Assembly: GCA_903813345.2 (NCBI GenBank)
Contig: CAIIXF020000007.1
Coordinates: 2,363,730 to 2,427,729 of the forward strand
Reading direction: 5' to 3'
Source of the DNA: Owenia fusiformis
Lineage: Eukaryota; Annelida; Polychaeta; Sabellida; Oweniidae
DNA: 64,000 nt
A model generated the notes under the pieces. The model was not told the origin of the DNA. It was given only the letters and a program-made list of their open reading frames with translations, and searched no databases. Each line of letters starts with the position of its first letter. Position 1 is the stretch's first letter. Positions 28,001-64,000 of the stretch are shown here, piece after piece. The position numbers and the translations under genes were made by a program.

Positions 28001-31000
28001 TACGGTCAGAAAGCTCATGATTCCTAGTTTTAAGATCTGCTTAAAGCAATTCTGAAAAGTGGACCGAAGGCGTCTAACATGCCAATTTCCATAGTAACCA
28101 CAAAATATGGTGTTAATAAGCAGAAAATGTTTTCTCATGCATAACTTTACTAATATTGCTCCGATTTTGATGAAATTGGTATTAAATTAAAGAGAATTAA
28201 AAGTTCTAGTTTTGGAACTTACTTTTATGCAAATTAGCTAATTTGCAAATTGATTGTGACGCCATCACTCCATTATTTTGTATATATTTTCGAATACATG
28301 AGTACATTTGATTCAGAATTTCTGATTGCAAATCCAAGAAAACGAAACACTACATGTACGTTCATTTTGGCATCGCTAAAAATGGGCATAACTTTGATGT
28401 TCTTTGCCCCAGTCAACTTACAAATCATAAAAAGGGACTCATTTGGAATAACCCAAGCATCTGTCTCGAGGTGGTGGGAGAGGTGTCCACTATTATGTCA
28501 AGGTCACTGTTCCACAGCTGAATGACTCTAACTGCCATTAGCTTCATTCAAGATGCTTGCCGAAATTCTTTCGTTTTCAATAAACCCCCGTTTCAGCTAA
28601 ACTAAGTTAAGGAAAAGTGAAGGTATAGTATATTGTAATTTTCGATAGGCACTGACTTCAGTGAATCAATTATTTTCTATTTCAAGGCTTTATTTGAGTT
28701 TGCTTTTCTTGCTGGGTTCTTAGGTTTTAGTCTCTTCCCTTTGGCGCTTGTGCTTAGATTTTCACTAAATATTGCACTGATTTTGATGAAATTGGTATCA
28801 ATTAAAGAGAATTAGGGAGTTCATTAGGAGAAATTACATTTATTCATGTTAGCTTATTTGAATAATCTTTTTAAATGCCCTTGGTTTTGCAAAAAGTGGG
28901 GTGTCTACAAAACAAAGACCTAAGACCTAAGACCTACAAAACTAAGACCCCCCACGTTATAAAACTAAGACCCTGTTATAAAACTAAGACCCCCCATGTA
29001 ATAAAACTAAGACCCTGTTATAAAACTAAGACCCCCCACGTTATAAAACTAAGACCCTGTTATAAAACTAAGACCCCCCACGTAATAAAACTAAGACCCT
29101 GTTATAAAACTAAGACCCCCCACGTTATAAAACTAAGACCCTGTTATAAAACTAAGACCCCCCACGTTATAAAACTAAGACCCTGTTATAAAACTAAGAA
29201 CCCCCACGTTATAAAACTAAGACCCTGTTATAAAACTAAGACCCCCAACGTTATAAAACTAAGACCCTGTTATAAAACTAAGACCCCCCACGTTATAAAA
29301 CTAAGACCCTGTTATAAAACTAAGACCCCCCATGTTATAAAACTAAGACCCCCCACGTTATAAAACTAAGACCCTGTTATAAAACTAAGACCCCCCACGT
29401 TATAAAACTAAGACCCTGTTATAAAACTAAGACCCCCCACGTTATAAAACTAAGACCCTGTTATAAAACTAAGACCCCCCATGTTATAAAACTAAGACCC
29501 TGTTATAAAACTAAGACCTCCCACGTTATAAAACTAAGACCCTGCTATAAGAATCAGTCACTGTGCCTTGCTCTGCTCGCCACAAGGTAGTCTTGCCTCT
29601 GGGCCTTGTGTTCCCCAGTAACATACAACAGCGGATTATATAAAAATGGACTGTAACAAATACCCAGATTTGTTGATTTTTAAAAAAAGTAATTTTTTGA
29701 TATCACTTTTTTAAAAAGTGATATCCCATTTTATGCTAGCATAAAAAGTGATGTCCCATTTTATGCTGAGCTTTAATGGTAGTTCAAGATTTAAGACCCA
29801 TCATTCTGGCACAGATTGCTGAACCATTGTTAGTTAAGAATTCCTAATAGAATTAAGAATTATTAGCTGAAACTGAGTTGTTTTGCCCTAGCAAACAATT
29901 TTCCAACTTGTAGTTCAACTTCTTCTGTCTATTTGTTGACAGTCTGTGATGTCATCATCAATCATCACAATAGAAATGAGGTAATTCACGATGACATCAC
30001 AAAGTACTCTGATGACATCATCAAGCATCACAATGGAAACGAGATAATTCATGATGACATCACAAAGCATCTCTGTCATAGATAGAACTCTGCCACATTT
30101 CTTAGAAATCAAACTACTATGTGACATCATAGATAATCTCACTGTCACAGATAGAATTCACCTAATTCCCATTGTGATGATTGATGATGACATCACAGAC
30201 TGTCAACACATATAGACAAAAATGAATTTCAAATGCATATTGGGATATTGTTTGCTAGGACAAACAGAACAGTTTCAGCTATTAATTCTTAATTCTATTA
30301 GGAATTCTTAACTAAAATAAGTTCAGCAATCTATGTGAGAAAGATGGGTCTGAAATCTTGAACCAACCTGTTACTAGGGAAAACAAGGGTCAGTGGCAAG
30401 ACTACCATATGTGTATGTTACTAGGGTAAACAAGGGCCAGAGGCAAGACTACCATGTGTAGAATCTTTATGTTAGTGGGGAGAATCTGTATATTAGAAGG
30501 GAACACAAGGGCCAGAGGCAAGACTACCATGTGTAGAATCTTTATGTAAGTGGGGAGAATCTGTATATTAGAAGGGAACACAAGGACCAGAAGCAAGACT
30601 ACCATGTGTAGAATCTTTATGTAAGTGGGGAGAATCTGTATATTAGAAGGGAACACAAGGGCCAGAGGCAAGACTACCATGTGTAGAATCTTTATGTTAG
30701 TGGGGAGAATCTGTATATTAGAAGGGAACACAAGGGCCAGAGGCAAGACTACCATGTGTAGAATCTTTATGTAAGTGGGGAGAATCTGTATATTAGAAGG
30801 GAACACAAGGACCAGAAGCAAGACTACCTTTTGTAGAATCTTTATGTTAGTGGGGAGAATCTGTATATTAGAAGGGAACACAAGGACCAGAAGCAAGACT
30901 ACCTTTTGTAGAATCTTTATGTTAGTGGGGAGAATCTGTATATTAGAAGGGAACACAAGGACCAGAAGCAAGACTATCTTTTGTAGAATCTGTATGTTAC

Positions 31001-34000
31001 TAGGGAACACAAGGCCCAGAGGCAAGACTACCTTGTGGCGAGCAGAGCAAGGCACAGTGACTGATTCTTATAACAGGGTCTTAGTTTTATAACGTGGGGG
31101 GTCTTAGTTTTATAACAGGGTCTTAGTTTTATTACGTGGGGGTCTTAGTTTTATAACAGGGTCTTAGTTTTATAACGTGGGGGGTCTTAGTTTTATAACA
31201 GGGTCTTAGTTTTATAACGTGGGGGGTCTTAGTTTTATAACAGGGTCTTAGTTTTATAACGTGGGGGGTCTTAGTTTTATAACAGGGTCTTAGTTTTATA
31301 ACGTGGGGGATCTTAGTTTTATAACAGGGTCTTAGTTTTATAACATGGGGGGTCTTAGCTTTATAACAGGGTCTTAGTTTTATAACGTGGGGGGGGGTCT
31401 TAGTTTTATAACAGGGTCTTAGTTTTATAACGTGGGGGGTCTTAGTTTTATAACAGGGTCTTAGTTTTATAACGTGGGGGGTCTTAGTTTTATAACAGGG
31501 TCTTAGTTTTATAACGTGGGGGGTCTTAGTTTTATAACAGGGTCTTAGTTTTATAACGTGGGGGGTCTTAGTTTTATAACAGGGTCTTAGTTTTATTACG
31601 TGGGGGGTCTTAGTTTTATAACAGGGTCTTAGTTTTATAACAGGGTCTTAGTTTTATAACAGGGTCTTAGTTTTATAACGTGGGGGGTCTTAGTTTTATA
31701 ACAGGGTCTTAGTTTTATAACGTGGGGGGTCTTAGTTTTATAACAGGGTCTTAGTTTTATAACGTGGGGGGGGTCTTAGTTTTATAACAGGGTCTTAGTT
31801 TTATAACGTGGGGGGTCTTAGTTTTATAACAGGGTCTTAGTTTTATAACGTGGGGGGTCTTAGTTTTATAACAGGGTCTTAGTTTTATTACGTGGGGGGT
31901 CTTAGTTTTATAACAGGGTCTTAGTTTTATAACGTGGGGGGTCTTAGTTTTATAACAGGGTCTTAGTTTTATAACGTGGGGGTCTTAGTTTTATAACAGG
32001 GTCTTAGTTTTATAACGTGGGAGGTCTTAGTTTTATAACAGGGTCTTAGTTTTATAACGTGGGGGGTCTTAGTTTTATAACAGGGTCTTAGTTTTATAAC
32101 GTGGGGGGTCTTAGTTTTATAACAGGGTCTTAGTTTTATAACGTGGGGGGTCTTAGTTTTATAACAGGGTCTTAGTTTTATTACGTGGGGGGTCTTAGTT
32201 TTATAACAGGGTCTTAGTTTTATAACGTGGGGGGTCTTAGTTTTATAACAGGGTCTTAGTTTTATAACGTGGGGGGTCTTAGTTTTGTAGGTCTTAGGTC
32301 TTAGGTCTTTGTTTTGTAGACACCCGCAAAAAGTGTTCAACTTGCGAGGTGTTTCACTTCAGGGATTTATAGTACAGATTAAAAGAAAAAAGACAAATGT
32401 CAAGACTTTTATACGTTTATTTGTCAGTCCCATTAATACTTCATACGAGGTAGCTAGACAGAGTTCAAATTTTATTTCCCTCTGCTTCCTTGATCAGCCC
32501 CTTGGATCTCCAAACATTAATTTTAGTTTCTTTCGAAATACTGGCAAAGATGGCTGTTTAAATATGGGTTCACACAATGTTTACCATCAAAATAATATCA
32601 AACTTTATTATTAGGTGAAATTTAGTGCATGGAACACATGGCAGAAAATTTGGAGCAGGACATTGACAAAATGTATCTATGTGTGCAATTAATTAATGCA
32701 TATCTGGAAAATAATAGGTTGTTCATTAAATCAACTTCAAAACGACAGTTTAATTTATGAAAATGAATAGGCTAATCCTGTGGCCGACAGCCGATAGTTG
32801 CACAAGTGAACTCAAGCTAAGATTGCAGTTTTAAAGTTTCCTTTAAATGGGGATTTTGTTCTTGTTTTCTAAAAACGACAGTGACATTGTCTATTGGTAT
32901 GTTTATATCTTAATCAAATATAAAGATTTGAATGGCCTAAGTGCTTTAACCCTCGTGTGTACATTCGGGGTCGGATTTTCCCCGGTACTTCTCTGCCAAG
33001 AAAAAAACTTTTTATTGCCGTAGTACCTATAGCTATAGATAATATATCATTTTTGGTGCAAAATTCGAGGTGATTGGGGGTAATTTGGCTGAGTTAGGAT
33101 GGTGGGAACTTTTTCAGATATTGCTTGAAAATCACACCATCTCTATGGTTTCATAGAATAAAAATATAAGCTGGCTCTTTTACTTTCTTTTGGATAAAGA
33201 CCATATAGTATACTAAATACCTTTACAAATAAGGCATATTACAAGGTAATCTGACTTTTATTGACTGAGATATGAAGTTTTCAATATTATATTGTGTGGG
33301 CTAGGAGGATGTAGAAGAGAGATGTTGGGAGTCCCCCCCCTTCGAAAATTTTGATATGATCATGTTACATAGCATGTATTTTATTGCACAGTGTATAGCA
33401 TGATAGCATAGTATGTACCAAGGTAGCATATCATGTAGCATAGTAGCATAACATATAGTAGCATAACATGTAACATAGCATGAAGCATGATAGCATACCA
33501 TGTAGCATAGCTGGTAGCATAGTAGCTTAACATGTAGCATAGCATAGTAGCATAACGTGTTGCATAGCATGTAGCATTACTTATTGCATAACATGTAGCA
33601 TGGTAGCATTACTTGTTGCATAACATGTAGCATGGTAGCATAACATGAAGCATAGCATGTAGCATGGTAGCATAACATGCAGCATAGAATGTAGCATCGG
33701 AGCATAACTTGTAGTATAGCATGTAGCATAGCTAATACCATAGTAGCACAACATGCAGCATATCGTGAAGCATAGTAGCATAACATGTAGCATATTTTGT
33801 AGCATAGTTAGTAGCATGGTAGCATAACATGCAGCATAGAATGTAGCATAGTAGCAAAACATTTAGTATAGCATGTAGCATGGTAGCATAACTTGTAGCA
33901 TAGCATGTAGCATAGTAGCATAACATGTAGCATAGCATGTAGCATAGTAGAATAACATATAGCATAGCATGTAGCATGGTACCATAACATGCGGCATAGT

Positions 34001-37000
34001 AGCATAACATGTAGCATGATAGCATTACATGCAGCATAGCATGTAACATGGTAGCATAATATGTAGCATATTTAGTAGCACAGTAGTATAACATGCAGCA
34101 TAGCATGTAGCATAGTAGAATAACATATAGCATAGCATGTAGCATGGTAGCATAACTTGTAGCATAGCATGTAGCATGGTGGCATAACAGGTAGCATAGC
34201 TAGTAGCATTACTTGTAACATAGCATGTAGCATGGTAGCTTAACATGTAGCCAAGTGAACATGCTAGTGAACAATAGTAAACATGCTAGTGAACATTAGT
34301 GAACATGCTAGTGTACAATAGTGAACATGCTAGTGAACATAGTGAACATGCTAGTGAACAATGGTGAAGATAAGTGAACATGCTTGTGAACATAAGTGAA
34401 CACGCTTGTGAACATAAGTGAACATGCTAGTGAACATAAGTGAACATGCTAGTGAACATAAGTGAACATGCTAGTGAATTTTTGTGAACATGCTAGTGGA
34501 CATAATTTAACATGCTAGTGAACATGCTAGTGAACAATAGTAAACACCTAGTTAAGAATAGTGAACAAGCTAATAAACAACAGTGAACGTGCTACTCAAC
34601 AATAGGTGGCATGCTAATGAACAATAGTATACATTACATAATCTTAAACAATAGTGAACAGGCTTCCCAAAATATTAAGAACTTAGGATAAAATATTTGC
34701 AAGGGACTTAACTTTTTTGCGAGGTCCATGGGTCGACAAGTATTTACAAATGGTTATTCTTTACACTATGACCCTTTGTTTGATATACTATATGTCTTTA
34801 TTTCTAAATATTCAATTTCAAACCCGATTTGATTTGTGAGGGCTAACACTTTATGCTAGGGTCGTGGATTGACAAGTAATAATAAATATCTAATCTATGA
34901 ACGATGCGCTTTCGTTTGATATACAACACGACTATATTTATTTATCTTCAATTTTTAACCTATTCCAAACCCCGACCCACGGGCCGTCCATAAACTCGAT
35001 ATGGAAATAAGCTCATCCGGGCACCTTTCCTACGTCTTCTATTCACAATTCCAATTTATTTGAAATGCTACACAGCCATACTCTAGTCAACTTAACTTTT
35101 CAAGATTTTTCAAATGTGCCCCTTCCCAGGGGCGCTGTCGGGTGACATTACCATCGTCATACATATCACTCGTGTTTGAATGGGTCGGGGGATTCCGGAA
35201 GTCGTCAGCACAGTCAGAATGAGACAATAATGACCTCAGAATACAGATAGACAACCGATAAACGTGTAGGCGCGAACACCTTTTCACAATATATGGGGAG
35301 GGGGGCACGATCGAGGGTATTCCATAGATGGTGCACTCTCAGCCATCTCGTAACGCTAGTACACCTTTGGTACAGTCAAACCTACATTTAGGCACTGGTT
35401 ACCTCTCGGTATTTTCCGTAATTCTACAAGAAAAGACCTATACTACTCTAGCCTACTTTGTACATTTCTTTCCAAACCGCCATTCTGATTTCTCGCTAGA
35501 AAATGTCAACTTAAGGATAACAACAAGTTCTGGTTGATACAAAAGGAGCTGATAACTTACAGACTTTTGAAAATTGACTTATAATACTGTGACCCAAAAG
35601 CAGAACCCTCCAAAAATATCCTTTATTATAACATATGTAATCAGCTCAATTTTTATTTCAAAATACCCTCATGAACGTTTATTACGAGGGAAAGAATCCA
35701 TTCAAATTGACCTTGTCCAAGTGTGTCATTAAGTGAAACTCCTATATGTTATATACATACAAGTATTTTCTACTTATTACAGATCTCTACAATACTTGTA
35801 ATGCCTTGAAATAGAAATACCTTGATTCACTGAAGTCAGTGCCTATCGAAAATTACAATATACTTTACCTTCACACGTGTCACAGTTCCACAGCTGGATG
35901 ACTCTTCATTCAAGATGGTTGCCAAGATTCATTTGTTTTCGATAAATCCCCGATTTCAGCTAAACTACATTGAATCTTGATTCCCTATGCAAATTAATAA
36001 AATACGATTGTATTCATCCACAAATGAATGCCCAAACACCTGCAATATTAGAGAATTTTAGAGAAAACAGCTTCACTAAGAATGACTCTAACCATGGGCT
36101 TTCAATTTCGGCAACCAGCTGTAGAACAGTGACCTTGACATAATAGTGGGGCTATTCCAAATGAGTTCCTATTTGTCATTCGTAAGTTGACTGTGGCAAA
36201 GAACATCAAAGTTATGTCCATTTTTAGCGATGCCAAAATGAACATACATGTAGTGTTTCGTTTTCTTGGATTTGCAATCAGATTGATTGAAGCACTTTCA
36301 AAAAATATAAACTAACTTTTTATTACACGTCACCTTAAGAGAAGAACATACTTACGCAATCAATAAAGAAACTCCTAGATTGACACATTTGAAATAGATA
36401 ACAATTGTCTTAAACTGGATGAGTGATATTTGCGATTGATGTGCGGCAGGGTAAGAGCTATCGCAACCTTTTGGCCAGTTGCGATTGGAACATCTTTCAA
36501 ATATGCGATTGTGTTGCGCATACAGGCTTAGGGGTTGATACAAATCCTGATTGTGATTCTCAAAAATTGCGTTGCGTTGTGTTGCGCTTGCGAATCTGCA
36601 TTGCGACGAGCGAGTGAGGAGGCATTATAAGTTTTCTAACGGTACAAAATTAATTCAAATATCGTAACTGTACAGTACCATACTGAATCAATATACTCAT
36701 TTATTTGAATACATGCAAAATAATGGAGTGATGACGTCACAATCAATATGCAAATAAACTAATTTGCATAAAAGTTAGTTCCAAAACTAGAACTTTTAAG
36801 TCTCTTTAATTTAATACTAATTTCATCAAAATCGGAGCAATATTAGTAAAGTTATGCATGATAAAACATGTTCTGCTTATGAACACCATATTTTTGTGGT
36901 TACTATGGAAATGGGCATTTTAGACACATTCGGTCCAATTTTCATAATTGCTTACAAGTGGATCTCACATCTTAGCACCACAAGCTTTCCAGCGGTACCA

Positions 37001-49044: not shown

Positions 49045-49045
49045 A

Positions 49046-52000
49046 ATGGTGCGTCCCATTAGGAGAAGATGGTGCCAGCCACCCATAGCTGAGAAATTCT
49101 GGAAGGCAATTATTTATATACGACAACAGAAGCAGATCCCTAACAATGAAAGGATCTGTCGTTATATGATGCGGGAACATGAGATGACAAAGAGTGAATG
49201 TGAAACGGAGCTTGATTATGCCGTAAAAGATGGTCTTGTGATGAACTATAAAATGATTGGATCTAAGGGTGTTAAGACAGGCATAGAGCAGGAGGGATAT
49301 AAACTACCAGAATCAGATTTTTCTGTGGTAAGTGACCCATTGATGCCTGGTAGTCTGAGGCTGAGATTGGTAGTTGTGAACTATCATGGGCGTAGGGCTA
49401 TATTTTGAGTTGGTACGCCCACTTAGGGATGATCTTGGGGGGAAATTTTTTTCTGAATACATTATTTGATGCAATCTGAGTGTTCAACTTTTAATTGTTC
49501 TATTCTGATAAAACCATGACCACCACTTTTGTTTTCAAAATACTGCCTTTTGTGTTATTAATCCAAATGTATTGCATCAGTTTGCTTGAAATTGTACAGG
49601 CAGCTAAGTCTATTGGTCAAAAATAATGTCTAGTAATTGCTGACAGGTCATATTTTCAGCTCTTTTTAACAATTGCTCAATATCAATATCAATTTGCTCG
49701 AAATCGTATCTTAATTTTTAAGTTAACAGCACTTTTTACAAGTTTGAACAATTTATTTTCCAGTCTGAGCTTGGAAGCCACGATTGGTATTGTTTTGAGT
49801 GCCATGATACAGGGGAGGTCCTCCAGTGCTCCGACTGCTGGAGAGTCTACCATACCTCATGTACAGGGGAGGATTGGTCAGGAGTCACCTTCAAGTGCAC
49901 CCTCTGCAAGGAAATTGACGTAAGTGATTTTATCTTGAACTTTGTCATATCAATAAATTGTTGATGAATGCTAGAATGAAAATGTTCCCCTGTTAAGGTT
50001 CATGTACAAGCCTTGCCTGATTATTTTGATTCTGCGCACTGTAGCTAAGAATTTAGGTTAGATAATATGAAATCTTTAATTTGCATTTTTCATACAGTGA
50101 TCTGTACATAATCATACAGCTAACCCTTCTAGTTTTCTGAGTAACTAACTGACTGATGAGCAGTGTTATTGGTACACTGTGCTAATGTAATGATTTATTT
50201 TTTCTCTAGGCCAGCAAAAGAAAAGGAAAAATATCCCGTAAAGAAATAAACAAACTTTTGTACTATGTGGTGAAAAGATTAAAAGAAAAGGTATGCTTTT
50301 GTTGATATAAACAAGAAAACATTTGTCTACATTTTAGATGTTAGTTATTAAGACCTAAGACTTCCAAAAAGACATTACTTAAGGGGAGAGAGGGGCTCTA
50401 GTCCCTCTCCCCTAGACCACATTAACTAATTTTAATTAATAGATATCAATGGTATATTTCTTTGTAAAGCTAATTTCTGGCCCATCTTGTGAAATGAAAG
50501 CTTTGTGTTATTGCAATCAATACAAACATGCCAAAATTTAATATTTTAGACCAAGGAACTGCACAGAATGGGTTCAGAGCTGGAGGACCAAAGATTCCAC
50601 AAGTTCCTCTTTATGCTGATGGATCTGAACACAATGGAGCAGAAGACAAAGGACAGAATGTACAGGTACTTACCTGAGTTCCTGGGAGATGCAAAGACTG
50701 TCCTACACAACACAAAGCTCATCTATGGAGGTATGTTGGCTCTATCTTATTTATTTCTGCTATTTCTTGTTTTGTTTTTTAAGATCAGATACAAAGAATG
50801 TATAATTACAGGTGAATCCTGCTAATAATTCATAAATTTAGCTCTTACTTGGTGATTATTCAAATTTTGGAAATAAGTGCCTGTTGAAATATTTCATTGC
50901 ATAATATAATGTGTAGAATTTAAATAGGAACCATGTAGTAAATTTAAGTAGATACTTTCATGAAAACATTGGATGTCTGAATGTTAGGGATAGCTCTTTT
51001 AATTTTTCAATATCTTCTCGTGTTGTTTGCAATCAAACTAAGCAGACTCCCTTTTCGATTTTGCTGTTTACATTAGTCTACATGTATGCGTTTAATCTTT
51101 ATGTAAACCTTTATGATTTGTTCAATATTCTGTGCTTTTTTCCTTGAAGATAGCATTTTATTTCTATTGCAATTTCCTTAACTTACAGTGAGTGTGACAT
51201 ACTTTAGTTATCAAGGCTTATTTAATTACAATCACCATTTTTTATTTAATCATACACCAAGTCTGGACACCCTGTATAAAGGTATTTACTTTGTAAGCTT
51301 TTGATTGAGCAACTGGAAAGAGGGAGAGGGGGGCTGCTCAGGGGACTTACTGTGATTCTGTAATTTTTAAATGTGTTTTTTTGTAGAATATTAAAAAAAT
51401 GTTTCATTTCTAAAATTTACCGCAACCCTGAGACAGGGAAAACAGAGGAGACACAGATATTTTTAATAATGTGATGGGGAGGGACTCACAAAATACTATA
51501 CTACATGTATAATACAAAAGTGTTTTCTGAACGGTAACCAGAAAAATGTCAAAGGGAAAATATAAAAATCTGTAGTAGCCCTGAACTGGTTGAGGAGGAA
51601 GGGGCACACAGACTTGGTGTAAAATTATGATAAAATAAATATATTTTTATGTGTATTCTGTACTGTGGTGTCCTGGTGCTATTTCTGAGCCTATTCTTGC
51701 AGCCAAACATGAGTTGAGTAAACTAGCTGATGCAGTCATGGTGGATTGTAGATATGATGTAAGTGTTGTGAATATCACCTCAATCGTGGTAGGTTTTTAG
51801 AGATGTCATGTCTTAGGATCAAGAGAGTGATGAGTGGTTGTTTGGAAATTTGGGTACTTCTTTATTATCTTTTCTGCAATTCTTATCTTGAATTTTCCCA
51901 AATTCTTGATATTCAAGAACAGCGAATAATAAAACTCAAATGTTACCTTGGGCTAGACATTACAAACTACTTGTGACTGTCTGGTTCTGATTCTGAGTTT

Positions 52001-55000
52001 CAAACTTTGATGATAAACTGTTCCTGAAGATCTTAGAAGGTCTTGCTATCTGCCTTTCTTTAAGCTTACTTAAGAAGACAGGCACTCTGTCATATCTCCA
52101 TGGTACCAAGTCATGACTCTACTAGAAATCTACCTGACAGGAGCCTTCACAATGTATAAATGACATGTGGTTACAACATGGGTTTCAGCTGTAGACAAGA
52201 AAAGCCTCTATCTCAAGGAAAGATTAATAAAACTCTAGACCCAACATTTCAGCAACTATTTCCCAGTTTCCTGATTCATAACTTACCATAGAAAAACTAC
52301 ATTTATATTCGATGAAAACTTCAATTGAAATCCATCGAGCGTGTCATTTGTACAGTGTAATGGTTCCATAAGCTAAGGATTAATAACACTGTGTATAAAA
52401 TTGTTCTTCTTTACAGAGTATGGAGAGTTAGCCATGCTGGCTGATGCAATGATTTACGATTGTAAATATGACGTAAGTTGGGACGTGCTTGCTATTGTTA
52501 CATAATGAGTTGAGCGCGTCACTGTGTACTGTAGAGTAGCATGTTGCCTGTGGCCTCACCTTCCACGTTTCATTCTCACTATATAGGGGACCCTCAATAC
52601 ATCATGATGAATATTGATATGCAACAGTGATATTGTATTCATGTCATGATGCAAATGAAATGAGCAATGATATAGCATGAAATAAAAGTGACTTTTCCAT
52701 TCGAAAAATATCTCTAAATCTGCCGTTTAGTATCATTTCCACAGAAATGTGTATCATGAGACATTTTCAAAGCTGCAAACTATACATGAGTTAGCAATAG
52801 CAATTAGTAATTTAGTAATCTCCCTTTAATTCTCATCTCCATTGAAATCTTATTATTAAGGTGGACATAGTATTTAATGTAATGTACAAAGTTTATTTAT
52901 TGATAGTTCACCCTACTCTGCCTACCTTCATTTAATGTGAATTAAAGTGTATAAAAGGATCATATTTTCTCTACAGATATTTGATAACCTGGTATTGTGT
53001 AATGAATTGTAGTTTTAGATGATTTAGAGGCCCTTTAAATGATTGAGGTTTTGATTCAGTTGCTTTAAAGAATAATACACATGCCACTTTTTAATAGTAG
53101 CACTATGCTTATTTTGTTTCCTACTGACATGATGCATGTATTGTACTGGTACATCGTTTCATTAGTATTCTGTATGCATCATCACAATCATGTGGATCAG
53201 GGAGCAAATCTATCTAGATCAACACTCTGCTTCATCTAAATATAAATATATTTTGTGTCTAAATCACTTATATCACAGAAATGATTTTTATTCACAGTCA
53301 ATTGATATCACAATCGCATAATCATCATTGTATCATCATCATTTTGTATTACAATCATTTGAAGCACAATCATTTTGTATCATATGAATTTTATATCAAA
53401 GTTATTTTATATCATAAACCTTGCAGCACAGTATATGCGCACTTTGGTTGCAAAATACTAAAAAAACAATGCACCACATGCTACACATTTCATTATATTA
53501 GTATTATCAAATAAAGTTACCCAAATTTTGTTGTCAATCATCCAATACCAATTTTGTGTCTTTTTTAATTAGATGTCAGTTTGACGAATTAATCTTTCTT
53601 GAAATAGCCTGTACAATTTGTACTTTAGTTCGTTACTTTACGTTTCTAGCATACATGTTAGTCACTAAAACATAGGTGTATTTTTCAACAACGCCTACAA
53701 TGTTTTCCTCTTGAGGTGTGTATATGTTTAAAGGGGCAACAAAGACCTAAGAGACAAGTTGAGTTTAGCTTTTAAGAACATCAGCTTTGCTTTGATTTTA
53801 GGCTATCTAACAAAGATTTTGGAAAGTGAATATATCTTATTTCATTTCTTAGACTAATTCATTCCTGCATCTTATATCATCTCATCAAAAACATATATAT
53901 TCTAAAATTCCAAATTTCAAGATATTTTTCAAAGAATAGAAGGATAGAATATTGCTTCCGTTTGTGCTCTCTATCCATTGCTGCCTCTTTAAGTTATTTA
54001 GTATCATCTTAATTGTATTTCTGTATAGATTTATCCTATATTAGGTTCAAGATATTTAATTGGAATTATGTTTGCAAATGTTGTATTATCCAAGGAGTAA
54101 TTCCAATATTTTGAAACAACTATAGGATATTTTAAATACAATATTCCTGCTATTACAAGATGTTAGGCCATAATTTGCCTTCTGTTGCAAATCAACACTT
54201 TACATTAAAAATTATTTTGTACAGTATACCTCAGATATAAAGCTTTAAAATATAAATCCCTCTCCCTAATGATTGTACCATTGTGTTTCGCGCTACATTA
54301 TTGTCGTTAAAAATCATTCTCAGATATTCTATTTTTTGACACAGATAGTTTCAGTAGTACAGAATGTCCAATGAGAACTGATAAAAATGCTTTAACTTTT
54401 TGTTTGATTAGATAACCACCAGAAAGGTAGAGCAATATACAATTATGCGACAGTTGTCAATTTTAGGTACAGGCCAGAAATATAAAACAATGAAAAAGCC
54501 TTTTTATCAGTCCATATTGAACATTGTAGGAATACGTGTATATTGCTGTCTTAAGTATGATGCCCTTTACTTCATATAATGTTCACTGTATTGGTGTTCT
54601 CTATTCGTGTGAATATGGAATTTGTATTTTATTTTGAGAACTTGTGTGCCAAGAATAATTAAAATCAACTATAGAAGCTTAATATTAGTATAATTATCAT
54701 AGCTTTCTTTCTGTACAGTATTTTAAATAATGCATCTCTGGATGAAATTGTGACCAGTTTCACTTTTGGTACAATTGATAAGCTTAGTTATGATGATTCC
54801 TCTGTATGTATATATTTTGTATATTGGTAATCTTAAGTGCTAAGTTCCATACCTGAGAGATTTTAGTTCAATTTATATGTAGTAAATATCAATGTTTCAG
54901 CTGGCAGAGATCCGTCAGTGCAAGGATTGTTATTACTTCAGTAATGCTAAGCCAAAGAACTGGTTCGCTGAGCCATGTGTGAGTAAACACCTTATTATGT

Positions 55001-58000
55001 ACAAAATTCACAACCTTAATTTATATTTTAGTACATTTTGAATCCTTCTGGGACCTTTATCAACTCTTTTTTAAACTGAACTAATAAATAAAGCACTACA
55101 TAACAATAGAATAAATACAATATTACGTCATACTAATCGATTCAAAATGTACATGTACCCGAATATAAAACAAAATGTTAAGATTTAACATATTACCGTA
55201 ATACGCTACCCGAATATATATGAATATAGGTTGAATTGAAAAAAAGGTTTTTGTATATATACAGTTTAATACAGGGTGACCCAAAAATGCAACTCTGTTT
55301 TTTTAAATAACTTTGTAATTTGTATGATCGATTGATGTGATCTGGTAGATGTTTGATATTGTGCTTGAAATCAGAGTAACTGCTAGAATTTACATTGAAA
55401 TATCTACAATTTTTTCAAGGTTTTTTGGAACATATTTTTTCCGAACAAGTCACATCCACTTGGAATTTTTACATAGTAATGCGTAAAAAATACAATTAGA
55501 TGTTAAATTTGATGATGTTACATTTCGAACCTAATATTTATGTATTTTTCCAGTCACCACCACATGAACTAGTATGGGCCAAGCAGAAAGGCTTCAGTCA
55601 CTGGCCTGCCAAAGTCATGAAGATAGAAGGCAATATGTATGATGTTAGATTCTTTGGGGCTCTCCATCAGAGGTAGGTGTATAGCCTTAATAGCTCACAG
55701 GTTTCATGAGTTTGATAATAATTTTAGAGGATCAACTCTCATGAGATTATACCAGATTATATGATGATATACATAGAAGTTATTTACTGGGGGGCATTAG
55801 ATATGGGTTTTATACTGAGTGGCAATATGTTACTTCCTGAGGGACCAAGGACAATATCATACTGACCAAAGTATAAAGCCCATATTCAATTCCCGTCCAG
55901 GAAATAGCATTTGAAATCATGATATCAAATGATTGAGTGATGATTTAAGTATCTTGTGATGATCTTTTTGTCTCTACCATCAGAGCAAACCTTCCCAAGA
56001 CTGCCATCAAACCAATCAGTTTGAGTGTAAGGGAGATTGGCGCAAAACGCACGCAAGGATTCATCAAGTCTTGCGAGGAACTGCAACGTCATCAGGCCCT
56101 CTGTGCCAGAGCTCTTCAACAACAGGAAGATGGTGAAGAAGATGAAGAATCGGATGAGGCCCCAGATTTGACGTTTCATGCGGCTGGATCACCCCAACCT
56201 ACTCCCGATTCTCCACAACCTAAGCGTGAGAAGAACAGAGTTAACAGCATGGAGATATCCAGCTCTGTTACGTCAATTCCTGAGAAACCAGTCGCAACCC
56301 CTGAGTCATCGCTAGTGACATCTAGCGAGGATAAAGTCTCTGCCTCTTACCCAGCTAAAAGGCTTCATGTACAAACACAGACATCTAAAAAAGTATGTCA
56401 TTTATATATATTTATTATGTATATATTCATCACCATAAAACAGTGACTTATAATTTAAGCCACCACTGTTTTTGCTCTGCATCAGCAGTATCAGTGTCTT
56501 TTGTAACATTTGCTGAATAAACAATGTGATGACATCTTTTTGGCTCACACAGTGAGCCTATGGGATTGACCAGGCGTCTGTCTGTTGGTCCGTCCATCTG
56601 TTGGTCCGTCCGTCCTTTTGTGTATGGCATTGGTGGTCAACATCTGTAACAAACTATGACAGTTTTTATAACCATCTGCAATGACTATTGAACCATGTAT
56701 TGCCATGTATACATGTGGATGGAAACCTTGTGGGTTTTGTCATCAATTAAGTTTATTTTCACTCTTAAGTACATTGTTCATAAAAATTAAAAGTTGTAAT
56801 GTTTTATTTTTAAGTTGATATAAAATGCAGTTGATGGATAACATTGCAATTGGTATAGTAATGAAATAAACGTATTGTTTAAAATGTAATTTTTTCTTCC
56901 CAGCTTGCCCATGGTAAGTCACGATCGGCACAGACAGAACCAGTTGATGACAGTGAGGCAACTCCAGCTGAGCCTGCAGGATCAATACCAGCTGGAAAAA
57001 ATTGTGATTGCGATAAAAAATACAACAAGATGTTAAAGGACCAGAGAGAAAAACAGCAAAGAAAACTTAATGATGAGAAAGAGAGGGGGCTCCAAGAGTT
57101 GTCTGATAGAGTAAGAATAGGCTCAATACTGTTTTGATTCTTTTACATTTACTTACAAAATTTCTCTTGTAAGTCAAAATTCTTTCTAAAAATACAAACA
57201 AAAAGATTGGAAACTAATTTTTGGGGATTTAGAATGAGTGGAATTTAAAATCTAGGAAAACTAATAAACTTATTTCAGTTTACACAAAATCAGTTTCCTG
57301 CTTAAATACTCTGATTGTGTACATCTATGTGTTTTAGTTGAAGAAGGACTTTGAGCAGGACAAACAACAAGCCGTGTCACGTGCAGTCTCTAAAAACCAA
57401 CGTGAGATCGAAATTGCCAAACGCCAGACTGAGGAGCGTTGTAAAATAGAATACATGGAGGAGATGAAGAAATTGGCTCAGAAACATAAAGAAGCCATCT
57501 CAGCTACAAAGAAAAAACAATGGGTAGGTTGATTATTACTAGTCTCAACAATGGAGTGAAATATGCAGGGTTGCATCGGGGTATCATTCCTTATTGGCAG
57601 ACAATTTAAACATACAGTAATGGACTAGATGCGAGTAGATATGATTTATGTCAAATATTCAAAATTCAGTCAACATGATGTCTTTGAAATCTACAAGTAA
57701 AAATATTTTCAGAAATATGGTTTTGAAAATTATTTATCAACTTTGAATATATAATTTTTTTTTGAAAATGTGACTTCTACACCCCCAATCCGCAATCAAA
57801 TTATCAGTGTGGAGTTAGTACTAATTTAGTGTGGAATTAGAGATTCCCATAGAGCCCATGTTATAAAACCACAAAAAGTTAAATATCTCTTCTTGTATTG
57901 GACAGATAAAATTTTCTTTTACTGGACATATTTTAATTTGCATAACTATTAGATATATAAGGGTGATATGAAAATCGAACGACTAAAACAGATGAATATT

Positions 58001-61000
58001 AAGTTAAAGGGAACTTTCTACTATACCCACCATGCTATCTACCCTGAACAAGCCACCTGGTGGTGAAACTAGTAACTACCTACTCGCATCTGATTCATTG
58101 ATCTCAGGATGAATTTGGCCACGCTGATATTCAGCCTGCCTTGAGTGAATTCATTTAATTGATGGATGTGTAATTATGTTGGCCTCGAAGCGTGAAAAAA
58201 TATATATTTGCATCTTTTACTCCATTGTTCAGTGAAGTTCTGGATACACAACAAGAGTAAATCAGATGCGCATAGCTGGAGTATCCATGCCTTGTATTCC
58301 ATATAAGACAAGCTTTAATAAATACAACTGTAGATTAGATTACTTTGCTATTCTATAATTGAAATTTTTAGTATAGTTTACTAATATTCACAATTTAAGT
58401 CTAATTTGCTATTCAATAATAAAATTGTAGTCTAGTTTGCCTTTTTGCTATTCAGAGTGCTATATTTATTTCTATTGTTTCATTCTTACTAATTTTGTTT
58501 CTATTAATTGATTTGAATATTTGATGTATTTTAGGGGCCTCGTCAAATATGAATGGGTTAGAATGGGTTAGAAGCCAGAAAAAATATTGCACTTTGAGTG
58601 GATAATGTAACTTTGATTTAACTAACGTAACTGTTCGATAAAGTTTTTCAAAAAGTAAAATGTAGCAAACAGTGGAGGGAGTCTGAGGCTTCATGAAATC
58701 AGTTTTGCAAAAATAAACATAGGTGCTTTGACCTGGCCCCTTATAGTTGTAATAAACAAAACATGATTCTACTAATATGTTTGATGAGTTTTATATGTTT
58801 GTCAGTCTACATGTGATATTTTCTCAGTATTCCAATTTAGGTGGGCTGAGTAGAATGAAAAATCTGGCTCCATTTCTCAATTATGCTTAATAGAGAAACG
58901 CTTAAATCCATTTTTGTACCAATGAAAATCATGAGGCACTCTGTTAAACCAGTAGTTAAATGTCATTGAAAGAGAATTTTTGACTTGGAAATACCATGGG
59001 CTTTCAAATAAAAGCCCATGGAAATACTCAAACGGTTTTTTATTTTTAAGAATTCCTAAATCAATTGTTGTAACCATAGATATAATGATATCAAAGTAAG
59101 AAAAACTATGGACTTCAGGAATTCTTAATTTTACATATAATTTGCAGTATAACATAAGTTGCAGAAATGGCTGGTTTTCCCAACAAATGGTTATTTCAGT
59201 CCTGAAACTGACTTTACATGTATTTAGTTTCTAAGCAGACATTGACCTTTTGAAACATTGTTTTACTGTAATCCCTGCCCACCTTAATAAAATTTGAATG
59301 CATTCTACTTCACCCACCTTTATGTCTAATCTTGTATTTGGGAATGGTAATCTTGATGTATGTATGTCAGTTTGTTGTGACCACAGGTTGTCTTAACTTG
59401 TTTTAAATTCACATTTGATTGTTTTAACACATAACTTTGTCCTGAGCACACGGGTTCACTGAGATGCAGAAATGTTTGAACAGTAAGTAATGAAGTATGG
59501 GTGATGGTACAAGGTGGTAGTAATGGGCCAATGGATATCATTATATTGAATAATATATTACTACAAGTCTTGTCTGTATTCAGCTTCATTTGGTGAGAAA
59601 ATGCCATGTATATGTCAGAGCACCAGTGTATGCTAAGATAAGCATTGTATGTCATGGTTTGTTTGTGTAATAACTGAATATGCATCATGTATTATTAATT
59701 GGAATATATTTTATATGGTTTGTTTGGGATACAGGTTCATTTTTATAAGATGTGTTTCAATGAAAATAACGGAATGGAGGAATGCGTTGGAATCAATGCA
59801 TGACTGGACATGGTTTTATTTTTTAGTTTGATTTATAATTTAATTTGTGTGGGGTTGATTTTCAGGTTTGGGGCTAAATAAATGTCATGTCTTGTTTTTG
59901 TCTCATTTTTATAAGGTATGGCTTCAAATATTTGAATATTGAATTAATGGAAACAATTAAGAATATCAAATCTAACAAATCAATTTCATATGACCTTTGA
60001 CCTTACCCAAGTGTCATAATTATATAACAGGTAGACATTTAGAAGTTCTAGTATGTTCAAATTATATGAAATCCAGACATCAGATCATACTCTCACTCAA
60101 TTAAAGAAAAGTATATGAAATATCTCAACCAATCTTCAATCTGGAGCAAAGTTCTGAGAAATTATTGTCGGTTCATTATCAATTTTATGAATTTTCATGA
60201 AATTCAATTTTCTGTTTTGCGTATATTTGGAAAAAGAGACAATTGATTAGATGAATGGTCAATCACAAAACACTAGGGACGTGAAAATCATTCATTTTCC
60301 GATAGAGAAAATTCTTTGCATCATCATGTAATACTCACAATTTTGGCTAAGGTTATCTTTTGATTTCTGATATCTGTTATTTATTGAATTATATTAAATG
60401 TCAGTAGCTTTAACTCTCATCTTCAGTGACATTTATATATTTTATTTCATAATGATATGTAAATTACAGAATCAGTAGTTCCAGAAATTGAAATTAAGTA
60501 CCAAAATCATGAAACTTCTTGCACATTTTTCCACTAACAGTTTTTCAAGTGTCAATAATTACTGAAATTATGGTTGTATTCTTGTCTATTGTTGCCAATT
60601 ATCTATTGTCACCAAGATTATTTTAATGGTATTTAGGATGAGAAAATGTAGCTCCTAGACCTTAAAAATCACCTATGCAACTTTCTGGCACTTTTAACAC
60701 CATTTTATTTCAATAGGCTGTTTTCTAAACTCAAAGTACTGGCTATATTCTACTGGAATAGTAATACTATTAAATTGTACTCAATTGTGCTTTTGAATGT
60801 GTTTCAGTGTTACCTGTGTGAGTCTGAGGCCACCTACCACTGTTGTTGGAATACAAGTTATTGCTCCACCAAATGCCAGCACGATCATTGGCAGAAGGAA
60901 CATAAGCGTGTCTGTAGAAGGAAGCGCTAAATCCGAGTCTTAACAACATATTAACTTGTACCAGTCTAAGGATAAGATATATCATAAAATGTTGTTGAAA

Positions 61001-62818
61001 ATTGGCTGATGACAGGGGAAAATATATGGTGGACTAGTTCAGCTTGCTATTAGTTGAATTATCGACAGGAGAAAGTTTTAAGTGTAATAGTCATAAGGCC
61101 TGGTTTTAGATTCAAGTCAACATGCTAAAATAGTCATGCAGTGTGGTTTCTTACCTCAATTCTGCAGCTTGCATTTACTGAGAAGTGTTCAAACATATTG
61201 AATCCATGAGGCTGAGTTATTAATATATGTATGCCACATGGACCAGGCTTTAAATTAATTATACGATAGTCAGAGTATAACATGGGTGCGGCTTAAGTTA
61301 AAACATACAACTAAAGGGCTATCCCATCATGGACGCACCTCAGGATCATTGAGGTATAAAAATTCTGATATCTGTAAGGTGTTTGTTTGTGTAAAGGGAT
61401 GACATGTTGTAATCCAGGGATTCCAGAAGTCTTGAAAATTAATTTTCAGAAGAAAAATTGAAGTTCCCTCAAAAATTGAAATATCCATGTTGGACTCCTC
61501 CCTCCTGGCTACTCATAGACTGAAGACTGCAATAGGCTCAATATTAAAATGAATTAGCTTCATTAAAATGAATTTGCTTCATGAAATTAATAAGAAAAGG
61601 TGCTTTGGGCATGAAGGAGAATATTTAAAGTCACATTAGTTATACCATTTATGTATAATAGTTATATTATAACATTACACTGTATATTCAGAAGCTCTAA
61701 GCTTTTGACTTGCATTTATAAAGTGAGACTGTCAGCATATATAGAGTCTCTGCTCAGCCATAGTTGATAACCAGATGGTGAATTATATAAATGCATTGGA
61801 AAATACTTTATGAATACATGTAATAGGAATATTACACAGCTGGAGAAATGCAAGGGATGGATGGATATAATGCATGGAGAGAAAATCGGGAAATGAATAT
61901 GGATTACAGATTTGTTTTAGTTTCTTTAGGAGTGTAGAAAGATATATCTTTGAAGAATTATTCCCCTCTTCTAATGGTAGGCAGGTTAATATGCTTCAGG
62001 GTTCAATTGTTTTAAATTTTGTGATTTTCTTATCTATCATTAAGAATTTCTTTTCGATATTGTACTTTTTAGTTTCTTATCAACCTGTATAAGTCAATAC
62101 TCTGTCAGGGCCTTGTTAAAGTACAGAGACCACAGGAATATGTTTCATTTTGTAGGTGAATGGTTTTATGAGTAAAACTAGTGAGGTTTCACTTTATGTA
62201 AATTTACATGGAATCTGATTGGTGTAACGTAATAAGTTTGAACCAATCAGATTAGAGAAACCTTTAACTTCTGGACTGATGTTACTTTTGATATCACCGA
62301 TCAGATATAATAAGTTTACATATTGTGATAAACTCAAGTTTTTCATTAAATTGTGAATTGTTTGTTTCATATAAGTTGTTTTGTAAGAGGTGGAGGAGCT
62401 TTTTGCTTGATTTGGCACCATTTAGTTCAGATAGCATTGTAATCATTGAGGCTGATTTTCTGTATTTTGTAATTTATTTGTACTTGAGACTGTTTGCTAC
62501 AGTACTTTGACTCTAACTTAACTGTCCTAACTTTACTGGAATGTTCAACCTCATTTTATGGAATTGGTTCCTGTGTTATGGTGAAGGATCTGTTGCCACT
62601 TTCCTTTTTTTGTCTGAGTCTTGATTCTTGTTGTGTTTCCACTACAGTATACCACTATTGTCCCGTTTATATGTAATTTAGCTTGTTGGTTGTAGTGTTT
62701 CCACTGTGATGAAGAGGCCATGTACCACTGTTGCTGGAACACTAGCTACTGTAGTATCAAATGCCAGCAAGACCACTGGCACAAGGAACACAAGCGAGTA
62801 TGTCGCCGTAAACGATGA
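49046..62818 (+). CDS. ZMYND11: ZMYND11 (BS69)-like chromatin reader, complete coding region
   Basis: Exons: 49046-49327 (ATG), 49764-49919, 50210-50290, 50550-50730, 51703-51758 or 52417-52472, 54901-54978, 55554-55672, 55984-56392, 56904-57110, 57338-57523, then 60808-60930 (TAA) or 62696-62818 (TGA). All are GT-AG and in phase, giving 625 residues (human about 602). Order: N-terminal winged-helix-like domain (1-94; [17 protein letters not shown]), PHD finger (about 100-143; [20 protein letters not shown]), bromodomain (about 150-252; LLHNT-type [19 protein letters not shown]), Cys-rich linker ([18 protein letters not shown]), PWWP (about 281-330; [22 protein letters not shown]), acidic/Ser-rich linker, coiled coil (about 475-583), MYND finger (586-621). 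In vertebrates this family reads H3.3K36me3 and restrains transcription elongation; the PWWP cage aromatics (Phe, Trp, Phe) are kept. ATG lies one base after the acceptor, so the leader exon is further upstream. Confidence 0.96.
49764..49919 (+). CDS. ZMYND11: ZMYND11 PHD-finger exon
   Basis: Codes a full zinc-binding set: [25 protein letters not shown] and FKCTLCKE, i.e. Cys pairs, a His and closing Cys pair in the PHD order. It is flanked by phase-0 introns (acceptor TTTCCAG, donor GTAAGT), so the finger is one modular exon. Confidence 0.95.
51703..51758 (+). CDS. ZMYND11: ZMYND11 alternative bromodomain exon A
   Basis: Acceptor TTCTTGCAG, donor GTAAGT, 56 nt. It completes the Gly-Ala step (G|CC) and reads [19 protein letters not shown], the last bromodomain helix before [10 protein letters not shown] at 54901. 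It is an alternative to 52417-52472, with the same length and phases and 10 of 19 residues identical. Using both would shift the frame. Confidence 0.85.
52417..52472 (+). CDS. ZMYND11: ZMYND11 alternative bromodomain exon B
   Basis: Acceptor TCTTTACAG, donor GTAAGT, 56 nt. Reads [19 protein letters not shown] after G|AG completes Glu. It lies 658 nt after exon A. Differences fall on the helix surface and its start (AKH/EYG, SK/AM, VMV/MIY), while LADA and DC.YD are shared, as expected for a swapped helix. Confidence 0.85.
52473..54900. other. ZMYND11 intron: nothing recognised
   Basis: Long AT-rich intron. I looked for a third copy of the LADA..DC.YD exon and saw none. There is no repeat array or RNA gene that I can support. 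Confidence 0.45.
55554..55672 (+). CDS. ZMYND11: ZMYND11 PWWP-domain exon
   Basis: Codes [14 protein letters not shown], then [10 protein letters not shown], then [12 protein letters not shown]. The motif that gives PWWP its name is HWPA here (FWPA in human as I know it). The three aromatic cage positions that hold trimethyl-lysine are kept (Phe in KGF, Trp in HWP, Phe in RFFG), supporting H3K36me3 reading. Confidence 0.93.
57524..60807. other. ZMYND11 intron before the MYND exons: nothing recognised
   Basis: AT-rich. Short hairpins are present (GGGCTTTTATTTGAAAGCCC-type near 58990) but no family I can name. The open frames at 58452-59831 overlap on both strands and show no conserved features. 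Confidence 0.4.
60808..60930 (+). CDS. ZMYND11: ZMYND11 alternative terminal MYND exon A
   Basis: Acceptor GTTTCAG, 123 nt, ends TAA. Codes a full MYND finger: [31 protein letters not shown], ending RRKR. All zinc ligands are present. It joins the KKKQW exon (ends 57523) in phase 0. It differs from exon B at 8 of 40 residues, mainly YLCES / FHCDE and the T/I and HDHWQ / QDHWH positions. MYND binds PxLxP peptides of corepressors. Confidence 0.88.
62696..62818 (+). CDS. ZMYND11: ZMYND11 alternative terminal MYND exon B
   Basis: Acceptor GGTTGTAG, 123 nt, ends TGA. Codes [35 protein letters not shown]. It is the closer of the two to the human finger as I remember it ([16 protein letters not shown]), so it is probably the ancestral copy. 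It has the same length and phase as exon A, 1.8 kb upstream. Confidence 0.9.
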
Positions 62819-64000
62819 GACCCCAACCAGGGTGCAACCTACACTTCAGCACAGGGATAGATACAGTTAATGTCTGTTTGGACCAGCTGATTTTCTCATT
62901 TGTAAACAACTAGTATGTAAACAACTGGTCTGTAATCATTTTGTGGAGGTCAAAATTGCATTAGGAACTAGTTGTTTTCCCATAGGTGTTGAAGATTTCA
63001 GCTGGTCCATATAGAAATTCACTGGTTATTGTTTTGACTTGGTTGTTTTTATGTTGCACCCTGACTCCACCACAGAGTAAAAATACATTGAATAAGGTTC
63101 ATAACAGCCAGGATTATTGGTGTTTTAAGTGCTTTGAAATACTTTTCAAATGATTGTGTCTCAATTGTGTATAATGCCTGCCTGTATCTGCCAGTAAGCA
63201 TGTTGATTAATGAGAGCAATGTAACGATCATTGACATGATAGAGATACCCTTTCATATTAACACTTCTAAATTGTGCTATTATTAATCCCTTGTGATATT
63301 GCCATTGTATGTATCTTGATATACTGTGGCATCAATGCCAAATTGGTATGATAGGGTACTTATTTTAATTTTAATCAAATGTAAACAATTGTAAGGATTT
63401 TACACACGATTAGTCTACATTTTGTAACTGTCCAGACAATGGTGACATTCCATTGATTAATGCAGTCGTCAAGATATCTTATTAGTCAAACTGTTCAGAC
63501 ATACCTGCCTACATCCCATCATTCTTGGCATTTTGTCTTGTTATTACTCGATGTTGATGGTTAGAACTTGTCATGTGACATGTACTAGGTGGGTAGGGTG
63601 TGGGCTTAATTGATGATGGGGTATTAAAGTGATTGAAATGTGCCATTTGCCACTCAGATATCAATCAGTGTTATTGAGGATTGTTAATTAGCATGATCCA
63701 TTGTAACTACAGGGTGACCAAGAACAACAAACATGTGCTGTTTTTAGCCTAACTGTCTTTGCTGTGAATTCTTTAATTTTGCATCATTAATCTCGTGTCC
63801 CTATCTTGGCTTGCATGCTTATTCAATGAGTGTTTAGTGAGAATGCAGACACTGCAAAGATCGTAAGTTTTGAGTTTAACATTGTAAAAATCTGTTAAGA
63901 ATTCCCAAATAGGGTTTGATGCATAAGTAAAGAGTACTTAATCAAGCAATTATACCACACCTTGTATGTTCACCTTCATTGTTCAATTCATTAAATTAAA
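62819..64000 (+). other. Presumed ZMYND11 3' untranslated region
   Basis: AT-rich, non-coding. An ATTAAA-type hexamer occurs in GTATTAAAGTG near 63620, but no signal stands out. The transcript end may lie inside or beyond the window. The stretch 60931-62695 would serve as 3' UTR for the isoform ending in MYND exon A. Confidence 0.4.

Follow-up and report, generated by a model that had tools for sequence, protein, structure and literature searches.

We describe here a chromatin-reader gene of the annelid Owenia fusiformis in which a short bromodomain exon is present as a tandem pair, as is the terminal exon. The window, by which we mean the whole 64,000-nucleotide (nt) stretch that was analysed (G000:C7:2363730-2427729, on contig CAIIXF020000007.1 of an assembly that totals 498 Mb over 525 contigs), carries at positions 49045-62818 of its forward (+) strand a gene that we identify from its sequence as ZMYND11 (BS69). 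Joining the ZMYND11 exons gave a single open frame of 625 residues in both combinations tested (A+a and B+b), A and B being the two 56-nt bromodomain exons and a and b the two terminal exons. The exons of this model are as follows.

49045..49327, +, first coding exon of the model, with ATG at 49046; SAMD1-like winged helix (Pfam SAMD1_WH, 3.4e-12); in the joined frame
49764..49919, +, PHD finger exon; in the joined frame; PHDvar_NSD match of 6.3e-5, under the Pfam cut-off
50210..50290, +, linker coding exon; in the joined frame
50550..50730, +, bromodomain exon and upstream neighbour of A and B, ending in phase 1 after ...HNTKLIYG; in the joined frame
51703..51758, +, exon A, 56 nt; (G) plus 19 residues, net charge -1
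52417..52472, +, exon B, 56 nt; (G) plus 19 residues, net charge -4
54901..54978, +, downstream neighbour of A and B, starting in phase 0; Cys-rich (zinc-finger) stretch after the swapped helix
55554..55672, +, first part of the PWWP domain (Pfam PWWP, 2.6e-8); in the joined frame
55984..56392, +, coding exon with the remaining PWWP and a linker; in the joined frame, the PWWP match extending into the exon
56904..57110, +, coding exon; in the joined frame
57338..57523, +, coiled-coil exon, ending in phase 0 at ...KKKQW; ZMYND11_CC E of 0.002, under the cut-off
60808..60930, +, terminal exon a, a MYND finger variant with its own stop, TAA
62696..62818, +, terminal exon b, the second MYND finger, with its own stop, TGA

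The encoded domains follow the order SAMD1-like winged helix, PHD, bromodomain, PWWP, coiled coil and C-terminal MYND based on Pfam matches, those for the PHD and the coiled coil being below the cut-off, and this order is the ZMYND11 plan. The Pfam Bromodomain match was above its cut-off with either exon attached (31.2 bits with A and 27.9 bits with B). In a PDB search, the best structural match of the bromodomain stretch was ZMYND11 (4n4g, E 4.6e-20 with A and 1.5e-19 with B), and human ZMYND11 (4ns5) aligned with the same stretch without gaps (E 5.0e-20 and 1.6e-19, respectively). Across PDB searches with the bromodomain carrying A, the bromodomain carrying B, and MYND finger b, the closest solved relatives were ZMYND11 and then ZMYND8. 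No intronless copy of ZMYND11 was present among four matches. The gapless alignments to ZMYND11 structures support an earlier reading of this DNA (the original prediction), which had named the gene as ZMYND11 and assigned the two 56-nt exons to a helix of its bromodomain. By its position, that helix is probably alpha-C, adjoining the zinc finger of the Bromo-ZnF-PWWP unit.

Exons A and B are spaced 658 nt apart, and both are entered in phase 1 and left in phase 0. Both have the donor GTAAGT, and their acceptors (ttcttgcag and ttctttacag) are good U2-type sites; the splice sites are of the ordinary GT-AG kind, and the two exons are identical at 34 of 56 bases and at 10 of 19 residues. The equal length of 56 nt, the equal phases, the good splice sites, the spacing and the 10 identities had all been proposed in the original prediction, and every coordinate and count proved correct on recheck. 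It had also claimed that the two exons together shift the frame, and this holds: the frame stays open with A alone or B alone, inclusion of A and B together leads to a stop four codons into B, and skipping of both leads to a stop in the next exon. Since several exon junctions lie downstream of those early stops, transcripts with both exons or neither are expected to decay. A and B are adjacent homologous exons of one gene, of equal length and phase, whose joint inclusion or joint skipping would be unproductive for reasons of frame, and both of these are features expected of mutually exclusive exons.

Because the slot and phases are identical, the sites intact, and the frame open with either exon and stopped with both or neither, our best reading is that A and B are the tandem duplicates of one ancestral 56-nt ZMYND11 exon and are used as mutually exclusive alternatives, a reading to which we assign a probability of about 0.78. 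The exclusive use is predicted to be enforced at least by the frameshift and probable transcript decay. The spliceosome would join either A or B to the neighbouring exons, possibly in proportions that vary by tissue or stage, and transcripts that contain both or neither would be cleared by nonsense-mediated decay.

Chance resemblance between A and B was ruled out by three comparisons. Among 20,000 random pairs of 56-nt segments from the surrounding introns, with near-overlapping pairs removed, the mean identity was 15.9 bases and the maximum 30, versus 34 for A and B. Across the whole window, 199 stretches of the form AG-N56-GT/GC have no stop in the frame required (103 on the + strand and 96 on the - strand), a number that counts A and B themselves; the BLOSUM62 score of A against B is 53, whereas the highest that any of the remaining 197 reaches against four references is 11. 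With splice sites ignored, the top score against five references of any further + strand 19-mer in the window is 29. Assembly duplication was also ruled out, as the introns differ and the DNA of exon A plus its flank, searched against the assembly, gave a single match, which was this locus. No third copy of the helix exon rose above background in 50731-54900 (the next best 19-mer scores 23).

The alternative that survives best, which we nonetheless consider improbable, is that the second exon serves chiefly as a poison switch, whereby inclusion of both exons or neither would produce a decay-targeted transcript that lowers the dose of ZMYND11, the two proteins being secondary. The length of 56 nt, which is not a multiple of three, and the early stops upstream of several junctions are in keeping with such a switch; however, a pure poison exon need not retain 10 of 19 residues, nor a full open frame when included alone. 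There is also a precedent in U2AF1, whose exons Ab and 3 are, like A and B, tandem duplicates, and whose transcripts with both or neither carry stops and are degraded, as described in the accessible part of PMC5224494. The same source reports that few residues change between the U2AF1 exons, partly in a helix, as they do between A and B, but U2AF1 is another gene with another domain and its behavior was shown experimentally, whereas A and B are known from sequence alone. By analogy with U2AF1, frame and decay could in principle be enough to enforce the choice.

It is unlikely, and slightly more so than a poison switch, that the gene uses only one exon of the pair, its partner being a relic of tandem duplication that is decaying or nearly silent. 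Both exons have kept AG, GT, length and frame despite 22 of 56 changed bases (a divergence of about 0.56 by Jukes-Cantor), and the changes are more frequent at third codon positions (11 of 19, versus 11 of 37 at the others; p 0.04), with proportions of silent (pS) and replacement (pN) differences of 0.62 and 0.33, respectively. We simulated neutral decay with 20,000 runs per distance, counting as a pass any copy that kept AG, GT and the open frame together with the score of 53. None of the 20,000 runs passed at each of the distances 0.75, 1.0, 1.3 and 2.0, and at a distance of 0.5 the pass rate was 0.29% with indels ignored and 0.015% with indels. A relic is unlikely because the simulation so seldom passes at distances near the exon's own divergence. 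Over 100 nt compared in register, the introns beside A and B have identities of 22% and 32% (random, 28.5%), and the downstream flank is at background in a gapped alignment of 300 nt.

Several points weigh against mutually exclusive use, and some of them would favour a relic. The signal of selection from A and B is modest (the p of 0.04 above), and their ratio of replacement to silent change (dN/dS) is by itself weak evidence, as the exon is short and there are 6.5 silent changes. At a distance of 0.3, a neutral copy passes in 6.7% of runs with indels ignored and in 1.3% with indels. Upstream of A and B, the similarity score over 300 nt is slightly raised, to a level reached by 3.9% of background pairs, and because of this weak residual similarity the duplication may be younger than saturation implies. 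We do not claim homology of the upstream flanks, either here or at the MYND exons: mono-nucleotide shuffles made both appear significant (0 of 200 as high for A/B and 4 of 200 for the MYND pair), but real non-coding pairs show them to be weakly unusual (3.9% and 9.3%). The reading draws on the sequence of one genome, and the lack of a clear pairing between introns, described below, also counts on this side. With these points set beside the evidence for constraint, we conclude that the tandem pair A/B of this chromatin-reader gene is real and under selection, and most probably mutually exclusive.

Enforcement of exclusivity by intron RNA structures that compete, or by a steric or U2/U12 site clash, instead of by frame, is known for other exon clusters (discussed in the available text of PMC5740500), but we doubt it here since the best intron-intron duplexes had no clear excess over shuffles (20/20, 8/20 and 3/20 shuffles were as good or better), the sites are ordinary GT-AG, and the 658-nt A-B intron makes steric clash unlikely. 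A scan for regulator motifs, run without a control, gave a few sites, from which nothing is claimed. Relatives were sought by pattern, and none was confirmed among 76 matches in genome_contigs and four in viral_contigs.

The ancestry of the exon slot is illuminated by the ZMYND8 (RACK7) paralogue, which lies on another contig (C1). ZMYND8, both the local gene and the human one, has a related PHD-Bromo-ZnF-PWWP plan with MYND. The local ZMYND8 has the same two introns at the ends of the segment encoded by A and B, in phase 1 on the 5' side and in phase 0 on the 3' side, and its slot holds one 56-nt exon, LHHKLTAAAKMILKVCKHE, which scores 63 against the human ZMYND8 segment. Unlike ZMYND11, it has a single helix exon: no second one was found in the full 3421-base interval between the neighbouring exons, which contains no N (next best score 22). 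We take the 56-nt slot to be ancestral because the local ZMYND8 fills it with one exon of that length in the same phases. A and B share 10 residues with each other, versus four each with human ZMYND11, five (A) and four (B) with human ZMYND8, and four each with local ZMYND8. Such a pattern is in keeping with an exon duplicated within the ZMYND11 lineage once that had split from the human line, although 19 residues cannot prove it. Possibly, B is the more changed copy, because A is closer to the Pfam bromodomain (31.2 versus 27.9 bits) and, by similarity score, to the human segments of ZMYND8 (33 for A versus 18 for B) and ZMYND11 (12 versus 8). Human ZMYND11 resembles the local gene in aligning without gaps over the bromodomain and MYND and in having Tyr at the acetyl-lysine Asn position, but its PDB chains have one helix version (a two-residue change in 4n4h/4n4i aside) and one MYND version.

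The original prediction had proposed that the exon pair gives two bromodomain versions from one gene. Two helix forms, each with the frame intact, would follow from use of both exons; a switch between two acetyl-lysine specificities is unlikely because the constant exon has the same Tyr as human ZMYND11 in place of the acetyl-lysine Asn (HNTKLIYG aligned with HNTVIFYG of solved ZMYND11). Human ZMYND11 has Tyr where ZMYND8 has that Asn, and its bromodomain was not found to bind acetyl-lysine according to the accessible text of PMC5177622; the local ZMYND8 also has the Asn, reading IIFNG. The swap would more probably change packing or contact with DNA or nucleosomes than acetyl-lysine reading. 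Human ZMYND11 Bromo-ZnF-PWWP binds DNA at low micromolar levels (PMC6222470, as available), and in ZMYND8 the joint mutation of R96, K233, K239 and K243 abolished the DNA shift, single residues not being reported in the part of PMC5177622 available. Counting from N228, the site of the mutant N228F in that source, K233, K239 and K243 map to positions 4, 10 and 14 of the exon. The swapped helix may therefore alter charge and packing on a face that contributes to DNA contact in ZMYND8. The net charge of the segment is -1 in A, -4 in B, +1 in human ZMYND8 and +3 in local ZMYND8, and the difference between A and B suggests a tuned contact, in which form A would hold DNA or nucleosomes better than form B. 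On the other side, local ZMYND8 has K at all three of those positions and neither exon has any (A has E, D and V; B has E, D and Y), human ZMYND11 itself has a charge of -3 in this segment, and the idea of DNA contact draws on position and net charge only. The PDB list contains three distinct ZMYND11 bromodomain sequences, two of which (4n4g versus 4n4h/4n4i) differ, in the aligned stretch, only at two acidic residues that open the segment.

A second duplicated exon pair of the same gene, which the original prediction leaves out, encodes the C-terminal MYND finger. A whole-genome family search for ZMYND11/8-type MYND fingers, in which 39 candidates were scored, gave three matches: two in this gene and one on C1, the latter assigned to ZMYND8 by its position near bromodomain exons. 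Exons a and b are homologous terminal exons, each of which has an acceptor, a phase-0 join to ...KKKQW and its own stop; they are probably alternative last exons. They have 88 of 120 bases and 32 of 40 residues in common, with silent sites saturated (pS 0.91, pN 0.14) and changes at 4, 6 and 22 of 40 first, second and third codon positions, respectively (p 1.5e-6). Their upstream flanks score at a level reached by 9.3% of background pairs, and the stretches after the stops are at background. These figures indicate selection on each copy more strongly for the MYND pair than for A and B. ATTAAA occurs between a and b at 61543, 61562 and 62345, and after b at 63623, 63990 and 63995; AATAAA is absent from 60927-64000.

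Exon b is identical to human ZMYND11 at 34 of 40 residues and exon a at 31 of 40. Of 11 positions at which the human BS69 MYND contacts EBNA2, taken from the accessible text of PMC4742278, b retains all and a retains nine, the changes being M531 to T and Q547 to H. The same source lists Q547 among BS69-specific interaction sites and describes the contact of M531 as via the backbone. If a and b are chosen separately from A and B, probably up to four ZMYND11 proteins could be made.

More tentatively, and with less than even confidence, we propose that ZMYND11 of this animal is a two-site combinatorial reader, in which the A/B swap would tune the grip of Bromo-ZnF-PWWP on DNA or nucleosomes and the MYND swap (Q547 to H and M531 to T among the 11 human contact positions) would retune the recruitment of PXLXP partners, giving four chromatin adaptors that are possibly chosen together by cell type. 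Human ZMYND11 is a reader of H3.3K36me3, as stated in the available text of PMC6222470. If both pairs are used, such a reader would be diversified at its chromatin-facing and its partner-binding sides by exon choice within one gene, which would also provide a natural swap experiment on the role of the ZMYND11 bromodomain that does not bind acetyl-lysine.

Mutually exclusive exons are already known as a kind. In the accessible text of a survey of human ones, 87% of swapped regions are in secondary structure elements and 377 clusters (60%) have exons not divisible by three (PMC5740500); neither ZMYND11 nor the bromodomain occurs in its main text, in the version available. Neither A/B nor the MYND pair was described in the titles or abstract openings found by a literature search whose reach stopped short of supplements and most subscription papers, and no report of such a pair in this gene or this helix, or of the double arrangement, was apparent in the literature searched.

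Elsewhere in the window, the list of open reading frames contains long repeat arrays with the same 14-residue reading in opposite orientations at 28875-29590 (+) and 31132-32358 (-), between which lies an array of the IQILPTNIK type at 30402-31067 (-). Two more repetitive arrays, at 33301-34285 (-) (ATCYA..) and 22122-23042 (-), have long open frames that are probably meaningless. Exons of formiminotransferase-cyclodeaminase were identified at 17479-17787 (-) and 23198-23491 (-) (Pfam FTCD_C and FTCD), on the strand opposite to ZMYND11. An ABC transporter exon lies at 9492-9770 (+) (Pfam ABC_tran), and the adjoining frames at 7253-10194 look like parts of the same gene, which is presumably of the ABCB6/ABCB7 type.

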